Below, piece by piece: positions 47,448-50,739 of a stretch of 64,000 bases of DNA. Origin of the DNA: Planctomycetota bacterium (GTDB lineage Bacteria > Planctomycetota > UBA1135 > JAKEFM01). Made by a program: the position numbers and the translations under genes. Numbering within the stretch: the stretch's first letter is position 1; every line of letters starts with the position of its first letter. The stretch is from positions 1-64,000 of the forward strand of contig JAKEFM010000158.1 in the NCBI GenBank assembly GCA_022616055.1, read 5' to 3'. The notes beneath the pieces are model-generated. The model saw only the letters and a program-made list of their open reading frames with translations. It was not told the origin of the DNA and did not search any database.

Positions 47448-49643
47448 TCACCACCAGATCGGGTTCGCCGCGATGAAGTCCTCGAACGCGACGTACTTCG
47501 GGGCGGTCGCCGGGTCCTGGTCGTGCCACTCGAGGAGGCCCCAGCGGCCGAACTGGGTGTAGCGGGACATCGACGCGAAGGCGACCAACGTCTTGCCGCC
47601 GAGGGTCCTCCAGCCGTCGAGGAGCTGGAGGTAGAGGAGGTACATCCCGGGGTCGCGGTTCGCGAGGTCGAAGAGGAGGTTCAGGGGACCGCTCGTCTCG
47701 CACCCCCCGAAGCCGGAGAGGTGCTGGCCCCCCTCGTAGCCGAGGAGGTCGAGGCCGCGCGCGGCGGCGTTCGCCTGGTTCGCGAGCACGTCGTCGAAGA
47801 CGACGGCGAGGTGGCTCTGGCACGCCGCGAGGAGGGCCGGCACCGTCAGGGCGGCCGTCTCCTCGCAGATCGCGGGGCCGCCGAGGTCGTTCCCGAAGTA
47901 GGGGGCCACGGCGAGGGCGTCGGCGCTCGCGGAGGCCCCCTGCCAGTCCATCACCTCGGCCCCCGCCGCCGGATTGGCGTTCTGGCCGCCGAGGACGCGG
48001 ACGAGCCGGTCGTTCGAGCCGAAGACGGCCGACCAGATCCCGAAGACCTGGACGGCGCGCTGAGAGTAGAAGCGGAGCCCCGCGAAGAAGGGGTCGGGAC
48101 CGAGGCCGAGCGCGAGGCCCTGCTGGCGGCACCAGTCCGTCTGGTCGAAGACCGAGTTCCAGGTCTCGTTCGAGTACTCGACGTGGACCTTCAGGTCCGG
48201 GTCGAGGTGGTCGCGCACCAGGGTCGCGAACTGGGCCACGTACGCGTCGGTCGCCTGGTGCGGCATGCAGAACCAGGGGTCGGCCTTGAGCCGGTTCGCG
48301 AGCGCGATCATGTGCTCGAGGGCCACGCCCTTCGGCCCCCCCTGCGTCTGCAGGCTCGGCAGCGCCCGGTCCGGCCAGTCGACCTGCGCGGAGTCGTTCG
48401 TCCCCTGCCAGCCCATGAAGCGCAGGACCTTCGCCGTGTCCCACCGCGCGAGGAACGCGGGATGAAAGACCTGCGGGCCGCCCGCCTCGAAGCCGGGCAG
48501 GAGGAGGCGGACGTTCCGGATGCGATCGGCCGGATCCGTCGCCGTGATCTGCAGGCCGATCCCGGCGTCGGTGGGGGTGACGTCGAGGACGGCGTGGCCC
48601 TCGCGGGCGCTCGCCACCTGGGCGTCGAACTGGAACTCGAGCGTCCCCGACCCCTCGTAGAAGCAGTGGTACGTCCCCGCCGGGTAGTGCCCCTGGAGGC
48701 CGGAGCACCTCAGGGTCCACGCGACCTCCCCGGGCCCGAGGCTCGCGGGATACCCCGTCGGCAGGAGCGGGAACGTGCCGCTCTCGGAGAACGGGCGGGA
48801 CTGCCGGAAGACGTCGACGAAGACCAGCTCCGGCGAGAAGTAGGTCACCCCCGAGAGGTTGATCCCGAGGGGCGATTGCTCGTTCGGCGGCGGGCCCTCC
48901 TGCGCCGCTTCCCCTGGCGGAACGACAAGCGTGACCGCGACGCTCGCGCCGTTCGTCCCCTGCGCGGGGAGCGGGGAGAGGACGACGACGCCTTCGCGCG
49001 TGCTCGGCGGGAGCGCGCCGGGGCTTGGCGTGAGCGTCAGCGTCTCGGGGTCGGAGAGTCCGAGGCTCGGGCCGGTGTTCCCCGTGACGAGGAGCCAGGG
49101 CGGAGCCTCGACCTCGAACTGGAGGCTCCCCGTCCCCGCGTTCCACACGAGGAGGTCGAGGGGGAGGTCGCCGGCGGTGAAGATGTGGGCGCTCGCGCTC
49201 GTCGCGATGCCGACGACGTCGACGGAGACCGACAGGGTCTGGCTGTTCGGGCCGGCGGAGACGACGACCTCGGCGGCGTGGTTGCCGGGGGGGAGGAGCG
49301 AGCGGTCCACGGTGACCTCGATCGGATCGTGCTCCCCGGTCGTCGTCCCCGCGGTGGGGGAGACCGAGATCCAGCCCTCCGGGCCGCCCCCGGGCTCGAC
49401 CGTGATGGCGTACTCGAGCCGTCCGCTCCCTTCCGTCCAGACCTCGAACGTGCTCGTCGACGTGGAGTCCCCGAAGGAGATGTCCTCCGAGGAGACGGCG
49501 ATCCCGTGGGTGTCGCGGCTCCTCGAGCAGCCGGCGAGGAGCAGAGCCTGGAGGAAGAGGGCCCCTCCGAAGGAACGGCCCGGCCGGCGGGCGCGGGGAC
49601 GCGGCTCGGGAGCCGACGCCTTCGCACCCGTCGGGTTGCGCAT
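47448..49643 (-). CDS. Lipoprotein with BACON-like Ig domains and a glycosidase-like C-terminal domain
   Basis: The 731-residue protein has an Arg/Pro-rich N-terminus and lipobox 'LLLAGC' near residue 39. Residues about 45-230 hold two BACON-like Ig domains ('DISFGDSTSTSTFEVWTEGSGRL', 'STREGVVVLSPLPAQG'). The C-terminal 430 residues resemble a TIM-barrel carbohydrate-active domain: 'AKVLRFMGWQGTNDS', 'VHVEYSNETWNS', 'ADALAVAPYFGND', 'LGYEGGQHLSGFGG', 'FASMSRYTQFGRWGLLEW'. Glu in 'EYSNETWN' and 'GYEGGQH' are candidate catalytic acids. Proteins of this type are often annotated cellulose-binding. It is probably surface-anchored. A -10-like TAGGGT lies 6 nt before the ATG. Confidence 0.88.
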   Translation of the reverse strand: MRNPTGAKASAPEPRPRARRPGRSFGGALFLQALLLAGCSRSRDTHGIAVSSEDISFGDSTSTSTFEVWTEGSGRLEYAITVEPGGGPEGWISVSPTAGTTTGEHDPIEVTVDRSLLPPGNHAAEVVVSAGPNSQTLSVSVDVVGIATSASAHIFTAGDLPLDLLVWNAGTGSLQFEVEAPPWLLVTGNTGPSLGLSDPETLTLTPSPGALPPSTREGVVVLSPLPAQGTNGASVAVTLVVPPGEAAQEGPPPNEQSPLGINLSGVTYFSPELVFVDVFRQSRPFSESGTFPLLPTGYPASLGPGEVAWTLRCSGLQGHYPAGTYHCFYEGSGTLEFQFDAQVASAREGHAVLDVTPTDAGIGLQITATDPADRIRNVRLLLPGFEAGGPQVFHPAFLARWDTAKVLRFMGWQGTNDSAQVDWPDRALPSLQTQGGPKGVALEHMIALANRLKADPWFCMPHQATDAYVAQFATLVRDHLDPDLKVHVEYSNETWNSVFDQTDWCRQQGLALGLGPDPFFAGLRFYSQRAVQVFGIWSAVFGSNDRLVRVLGGQNANPAAGAEVMDWQGASASADALAVAPYFGNDLGGPAICEETAALTVPALLAACQSHLAVVFDDVLANQANAAARGLDLLGYEGGQHLSGFGGCETSGPLNLLFDLANRDPGMYLLYLQLLDGWRTLGGKTLVAFASMSRYTQFGRWGLLEWHDQDPATAPKYVAFEDFIAANPIWW

Positions 49644-49805
49644 CCCTGAACCCTAGGCGGGACGCGCCGGCCGCCAATCGGGTCGTTGACGGAGCACCCC
49701 CTCCGGCGGATCCCCGAGGGGGACCGGCCCGGCCGGATTCGAAAGAACCACGGCCCCCCGCGAACGGCCTCGCGTGGAGGGGGCCGGGTCCCGCCGCCTG
49801 GTCCC

Positions 49806-49834
49806 TTGTGCCGGGGGGCGGAAGGGACTATCCT
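49806..49834 (+). promoter_or_regulatory. Promoter for the RRM gene leader
   Basis: TTGTGC (49806-49811), a 17-bp spacer and TATCCT (49829-49834) form a good sigma-70-type promoter. Transcription would begin near 49841 and first meet the hairpin terminator at 49878-49909, then the RRM gene at 50088. Confidence 0.5.
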
Positions 49835-49840
49835 CCACGC

Positions 49841-49909
49841 GTTCGCGTTCGAGCTGACACCCCTTCGCGCCCATGAGACGCCTTCGGGTCACGGCCCGAA
49901 GGCGTTTTT
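49841..49909 (+). ncRNA. Candidate short leader RNA ending at a terminator
   Basis: Between the predicted transcription start and the hairpin terminator is an RNA of about 70 nt with no open frame of note. It could be a small RNA or the prematurely terminated leader of the RRM mRNA. It is inferred only from the promoter and terminator. Confidence 0.35.
49878..49909 (+). terminator. Intrinsic terminator/attenuator upstream of the RRM gene
   Basis: ACGCCTTCGGG-TCACGG-CCCGAAGGCGT is a perfect 11-bp stem with a six-base loop, followed directly by TTTT. There is no + strand protein gene before it; the nearest upstream gene runs the other way. It sits about 180 bp before the RRM start codon. Confidence 0.88.
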
Positions 49910-50087
49910 CGTTCTCTCCCGCGGTCTCGGGGGCGGGGCACGGCCGATCAAGGCCGGCACCGGTCCCCTCGAGATCTCGGCAGCGGGGAAGGGTGGGCCT
50001 TCACGGTCCGCACCCGCCCCGGTCTCCGCTACCGGCGGGAGGGACGGCGTTTGCGACGATGGCGGACCGGGAAAAAGTAGAGATTCA

Positions 50088-50381
50088 ATGGGTTCGAGAC
50101 TGTACGTGGGGAACCTGCCTTTCACCGCCGACGAGAGCTCGCTGCGAGCCCTCGTCGTCGCAGCAGGCCACCAGCCGACCGACATCACGGTCGTCAAGGA
50201 CCGGGAGACCGGTCGCTCTCGCGGCTTCGCCTTCGTGACGCTCGCCTCGGAGGGAGCGGCGCAGGCCGTCGTGCAGGCGCTCAACGGCAAGGATCTGGAG
50301 GGTCGCGCGCTCACGGTGAACGAGGCACGCGAGAGGACCGCGGGCGGCGGATCCGGGGGCGGGCGCGGGGGCCGCTACTAG
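50088..50381 (+). CDS. RRM-domain RNA-binding protein (Rbp type)
   Basis: ATG 50088 gives a 97-residue protein consisting of one RRM plus a Gly-rich tail. RNP2 is 'RLYVGNLPF' (residues 4-12) and RNP1 is 'RSRGFAFVTL' (residues 43-52). The tail 'TAGGGSGGGRGGRY' resembles those of cyanobacterial and planctomycete Rbp proteins, which bind RNA and are often cold-induced. The track ORF extends upstream without coding character. The ribosome site is weak. A terminator hairpin in the upstream leader suggests that its expression is attenuated. Confidence 0.94.
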   Translation: MGSRLYVGNLPFTADESSLRALVVAAGHQPTDITVVKDRETGRSRGFAFVTLASEGAAQAVVQALNGKDLEGRALTVNEARERTAGGGSGGGRGGRY

Positions 50382-50502
50382 GTTCGCACGGGCCGCCCGG
50401 ACGGCCCGGTCGTTCGCTTCGTTCGTTCCGGCGGGCCCCTCCGCGGGGTCCGCCGGGTCTTGCCCCGTCCCGCAGGTCCACGTCCACGAGGAGGCGCCTC
50501 CA

Positions 50503-50739
50503 ATGCAGCTTGCACGATGGGTCCCGAAGCAGCCGCTCGTCGTCGAGCGCTGGAGGCTCGGCGAGGACATCGCGGAGGTCGCGACGGTCGGGGGGAAGGG
50601 GGGCTGGCGAGTGACGATCTTCCGCAAGCGCCGCGACGCCTGGCGCCGCGAGGTCCGCACCTTCCGCACGAACCGCGCGATCCCGGCGACCCTGGAGGCC
50701 CTGGGCTTCGCGAAGTGCGAGCGCACCGGGCGGAACTGA
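50503..50739 (+). CDS. Small basic hypothetical protein (78 aa)
   Basis: The frame has a strong ribosome site (AGGAGG, 8-9 nt before ATG 50503). The product is basic, with a central 'GWRVTIFRKRRDAWRREVRTFRTNRAIP' stretch and no signal peptide or membrane segment. It lies 121 bp after the RRM gene, in the same direction. I do not recognise it. Its reality rests mainly on the ribosome site and codon composition. Confidence 0.5.
   Translation: MQLARWVPKQPLVVERWRLGEDIAEVATVGGKGGWRVTIFRKRRDAWRREVRTFRTNRAIPATLEALGFAKCERTGRN

Follow-up and report, generated by a model that had tools for sequence, protein, structure and literature searches.

A candidate transcription attenuator with two mutually exclusive predicted folds in the 5' leaders of two RRM protein genes of a Planctomycetota bacterium

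The DNA analyzed here, hereafter the window, is a GC-rich stretch of 64,000 nt from a Planctomycetota bacterium, and the locus of interest is a plus-strand gene at 50088..50381 whose 97-aa product carries a single RRM and a short glycine-rich tail (Pfam RRM_1, 63.9 bits). The upstream neighbor, on the minus strand at 47448-49643, has a product of 731 aa with a BACON_2 domain close to the N-terminus; the gene is divergent from the RRM gene and points away from it, so that a hairpin lying between the two is not the terminator of this neighbor. The plus-strand DNA further upstream is antisense to the neighboring gene. Downstream of the RRM gene, a 78-aa ORF at 50503-50739, with no match in Pfam or NCBIfam, may be a real small gene. 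Directly past the RRM stop codon, at 50410-50430, lie GTTCG-type repeats (CGTTCGCTTCGTTCGTTCC) that resemble the tandem CGTTCG of a leader block described below; no such repeat run was seen after the paralogous RRM gene.

The initial annotation had placed a perfect hairpin with a T run ahead of the RRM gene, and we confirm it. At 49878-49905 of the plus strand, an 11-bp perfect stem encloses a 6-nt loop (ACGCCTTCGGG-TCACGG-CCCGAAGGCGT) and runs into a T run (TTTTT, 49905..49909; the U tract of the transcript) that ends 178 nt short of the RRM ORF, and no convincing protein gene intervenes, again as first described. On the two strands of the 64 kb window no other perfect stem of at least 7 bp precedes a TTTT; 40 runs of first-order Markov sequences with the dinucleotide make-up of the window yielded 0.1 stems of at least 7 bp with TTTT per window and none of at least 9 bp. 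Judged by that single case (stem of at least 7 bp plus TTTT), perfect-stem intrinsic terminators seem very rare across positions 1-64000. The hairpin with its T run (49878-49909) is absent from the output of a generic terminator scan of the window, presumably because the scan demands at least five T after the stem.

Upstream of the hairpin stands a promoter-like site, TTGTGC-17-TATCCT (49806..49834). The initial annotation had called this a good promoter; the site is indeed present, but its strength is modest, matching the sigma-70 consensus at 7/12 positions and falling under the promoter-scan threshold. Its -10 element, TATCCT, is the only TANNNT in 49790-50087. Five nucleotides past it begins a 16-nt block, CGTTCGCGTTCGAGCT (49840..49855), which contains the tandem CGTTCG and lies at the predicted start of a short transcript of ~69 nt, predicted from the sequence to begin near 49841. 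An intrinsic terminator is thereby placed between a promoter-like site and an ATG, and there is no gene for it to end.

The same arrangement recurs at a second locus. The genome holds three RRM genes, and the closest paralog of the window gene (76% amino acid identity) lies on another contig among different neighbors, its upstream gene likewise pointing away; the third RRM gene is without the element. The paralog leader presents TTGCAT-16-TACAGT, an identical CGTTCGCGTTCGAGCT beginning 6 nt past the -10, and a hairpin with TTTTTC, the ATG following after 200 nt. Identity between the copies is 78% over the 71-nt element, compared with 79% for the coding region. Over the ~150 nt past the element no significant local match joins the two leaders; similarity returns in a short stretch just ahead of the ATG, where GCGGACCGGGA (50062..50072) is conserved in both. 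As at the window locus, the paralog terminator sits between promoter-like site and ATG with no gene to end; it carries two mismatches in the 11-bp hairpin, the lower six pairs being intact in both copies, and is weaker (-14 kcal/mol, against -23.7 kcal/mol for the window hairpin). Nearer the start codon, CGGTCCGC (50004..50011) is complementary to GCGGACCG at 50062-50069, and both are found in the paralog (L002 1400, 1461); we tentatively suggest that such a predicted helix just before the start codon could add translational control, noting that the pairing is absent from the minimum-energy fold. We also considered a small conserved peptide within the element and rejected it, as a one-base indel between the copies breaks the reading frame.

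What the two copies conserve as a structure is not the 11-bp hairpin but a longer rod, overlooked in the initial annotation. The RNAalifold consensus of both copies is an imperfect, antiterminator-like rod of 18 bp (49844..49904, plus strand; CGC.UUCG.GCUG..ACCC....GCG / CGC....GGGU..CGGC.CGAA.GCG) that joins the beginning of the transcript to the 3' arm and the loop side of the compact hairpin, so that one terminator arm is used by a competing fold present in both copies; most of the 5' arm is supplied by the identical 16-nt block. All 18 of the 18 rod pairs are kept in both copies, and two of them differ on both sides in a compensatory way (G-C to C-G and A-U to G-C). When the 16-mer and the U tract are left aside, 4/26 rod-paired columns carry substitutions, as against 12/22 unpaired columns (p = 0.006), and the four in paired columns are precisely the two compensated pairs. 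The consensus energy of -26.5 kcal/mol compares with -11.1 +/- 3.0 for column shuffles (z -5.2; 0/2000 as low), and random placement of the substitutions preserved all rod pairs in 0.02% of trials. Two compensations arose in 7.6% of trials when letters were shuffled with the substituted positions fixed, and shuffles of the 5' half alone gave a rod energy as low as the real one in 5.4% of cases for the window copy and in 2.4% for the paralog. As the covariation rests on two pairs, there being two known copies in one genome, we regard this two-sequence support for conservation of the predicted rod as good but not final.

We searched for further copies by DNA search, with two covariance models (hairpin and rod) and with the 16-mer, in the genome itself and across its order, 154 genomes in all (the class-level search comprised the same 154 genomes). 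The element was found nowhere else in its own genome nor in the 153 other genomes of the order, and the weak matches examined lay in other contexts without the full layout. The rod model, run also over 392 genomes of the phylum, returned two weak matches that had no U tract and stood at the level expected by chance. We set aside an exact match of 24 bases in G053, as it lies within apparent coding sequence (AFAFEL). Of the other near matches of the 16-mer in the genome, none of those checked was followed by a T run, and no second, non-RRM site of similar setting was found that would mark the 16-mer as the operator of a DNA-binding repressor.

The initial annotation had offered two readings of the leader terminator, an attenuator or a small RNA, and this framing is supported, with the attenuator favored on three grounds: the link to an RRM gene at a second locus at a similar distance, the lack of any other TANNNT before either ATG, and the conserved antiterminator-like fold with its compensatory changes. 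On balance we read the element as a cis-acting transcription attenuator in the RRM gene 5' leader, and lend this reading slightly more belief than doubt. In its favor, the same element recurs at 178 and 200 nt from an ATG at loci with different neighbors, and its conservation equals that of the coding sequence while most of the intervening leader cannot be aligned; against it stand the weaker, twice-mismatched paralog terminator (-14 kcal/mol), a promoter of 7/12 and the possibility that the rod, itself adjoining the U tract, acts as a terminator. The small-RNA reading would instead have an independent ~70-nt sRNA in two copies, each just upstream of an RRM gene, with the 16-mer as a possible seed; the RRM product may then be a partner of the sRNA, and the RRM gene may be served by a promoter of its own or by read-through. 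A promoter-like site, an identical 16-nt 5' end and a terminator do compose the usual anatomy of an sRNA, with a promoter and terminator of its own as far as the sequence tells, the copies are conserved where most of the stretch from element to gene is not, and the multicopy FopS sRNA family of Bacteroides is linked with an RRM protein, RbpB (PMC11697453). Yet the 16-mer is largely paired in the predicted rod rather than free to act as a seed, the element is found only before these two RRM genes, and it has no Rfam match. Nor does a TANNNT from which the RRM genes might be separately transcribed occur between the element and either ATG, a point to be read with the caution that chance alone would leave about half of comparable GC-rich stretches without one. 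We hold an independent sRNA to be possible but on the whole unlikely.

Returning to the attenuator, the rod and the compact hairpin exclude each other because they have a common 3' arm (CGAAGGCG), and the U tract adjoins both. The two copies are computed to prefer opposite folds. In the window copy, the compact-hairpin state lies at -30.2 kcal/mol and the rod at -25.6, a gap of +4.6; in the paralog, the rod lies at -27.7 kcal/mol and the hairpin state at -20.6, a gap of -7.1. When the growing transcript is folded, the rod is the most stable structure between about nt 58 and nt 64; with the 3' arm complete, the compact hairpin becomes best in the window copy and the rod is still best in the paralog. 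From these computations we propose a mechanism in which transcription would start near 49841 and the first ~65 nt would fold either as the long rod or as the compact hairpin, both using the 3' arm CGAAGGCG just ahead of the U5 tract. If the compact hairpin formed, transcription would end after ~69 nt; if the rod were held, whether through the pace of the polymerase or through binding of a protein (the RRM protein itself being one possibility), the polymerase would read through into the RRM gene. The start and end of the transcript at these sites, like the trigger that would decide between the folds, are inferred, and the rod, which also reaches the U tract but with a weaker, mismatched base, would represent the read-through state. 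With two exclusive folds before a stop signal and the same element at the sister gene, the element before both RRM genes is probably a switch deciding whether the genes are read.

Two other accounts would dispense with switching of this kind. A constitutive leader terminator could set a low, fixed level of RRM protein or block stray transcription from upstream; the strength of the window hairpin (-23.7 kcal/mol) suits it, as does the plus-strand DNA upstream being antisense to the neighboring gene, but it leaves unexplained the identical 5' block, the adjoining promoter-like site and the compensatory changes in a second fold, and we consider it improbable. Alternatively, the rod, which likewise stops immediately short of the U tract, might act as a terminator and not as an antiterminator: it would then be an imperfect but functional terminator, or else a hairpin bound by protein, and the 11-bp stem of the window a functionless secondary state. 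This account agrees with the rod being both the preferred paralog fold and the two-copy consensus, and with its abutting the U tract; a perfect 11-bp stem with TTTT is nevertheless not expected by chance, and both copies retain the lower six pairs of the compact hairpin. To this reading we give least credence, as very improbable.

As to what might throw the switch, the attenuator reading can be carried further, to a bistable leader RNA through which the RRM protein controls its own gene by antitermination, the switches of the two paralogs standing in opposite resting states. That an RRM protein might autoregulate its own leader is plausible by analogy; the full proposal, with opposite resting states, we rate as doubtful. 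Temperature control, which the initial annotation had found attractive, goes unsupported: under a simple energy model the energy gap separating the folds does not change sign in either copy between 5 and 45 C, so that direct temperature sensing by the switch is not supported, and no RNA thermometer signature, that is, a temperature-dependent fold preference, was seen over this range.

A comparison of RRM gene leaders among relatives, which the initial annotation had suggested, gave a divided answer: several groups of the order have long, conserved, structured leaders, but the terminator element was found in this genome only. Across the 86 RRM gene leaders of the order that were scanned, leader terminators followed no consistent pattern. 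Several leader groups are long and conserved between genera and even families, and in two of them the conserved fold lies well below shuffles (z -3.9 and -4.6), with 11 and 12 pairs changed on both sides. The first of these groups (L020, L027, L033, L114, L127, L147 and L164; z -3.9, 11 pairs) is conserved across two families around the block TGCAGTCTGATCGAATTCGCGTGCGTACGCGGCGGC and is possibly a new cis-regulatory RNA family. The leaders of the second (L006, L154, L159 and L161; z -4.6) bear a CCAGTCG...CGACTGG hairpin, and in the same leaders GGACCCG pairs with CGGGTCC just before the start codon. Given conserved structured leaders in several groups, regulated leaders seem usual for RRM genes of this order, the present genome having its own version.

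Little is known of how bacterial RRM proteins are themselves controlled. The element, if confirmed, would be a compact terminator-based switch in an RRM gene leader, offering two natural variants of opposite computed preference that can be directly compared in vitro, and, to judge from the structured leaders of several other groups of the order, control of RRM genes through their leaders seems more general than this element. The nearest kind described is the Chlorobi-RRM motif (RF01697), a structured RNA named for the bacterial RRM genes with which it is associated and likely cis-regulatory (Weinberg et al. 2010, PMC2864571). It is, as here, a structured RNA tied to RRM genes, but in a different lineage, and its covariance model matched neither the window leader nor the paralog leader, nor any of 61 genomes (this one and relatives; 0/61); neither of the two leaders has an Rfam match of any kind.

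Among better-studied systems, CspA-family proteins of E. coli antiterminate (Bae 2000; Phadtare 2002; reviewed in PMC4347634). As outlined there, small RNA-binding chaperones act on the choice between terminator and antiterminator, and the same would hold for a chaperone that acted on the leader of its own gene; the domain in that family is the cold-shock domain, unlike the RRM here, and action of the RRM protein on its leader is proposed by analogy. Cyanobacterial class I rbp genes have cold-response boxes in their 5' UTRs (Maruyama 1999, as cited in PMC9333190; Sato and Nakamura 1998, as cited in PMC6091082), and these accounts describe a similar long regulatory 5' leader on a glycine-rich RRM gene; the fold balance computed for the present leaders has no temperature switch. 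FopS of Bacteroides is a multicopy sRNA family in which a single-stranded conserved 5' stretch is followed by an intrinsic terminator, and the rbpB mRNA carries an RbpB site that the authors connect to potential autoregulation (PMC11697453). The likeness lies in a multicopy RNA with a conserved 5' end, an intrinsic terminator and a link to an RRM protein; FopS copies are, however, scattered and are not leaders of RRM genes, whereas the element here precedes them. By analogy with the CspA, cyanobacterial rbp and RbpB/FopS precedents, an autoregulated attenuator and an sRNA would both be reasonable.
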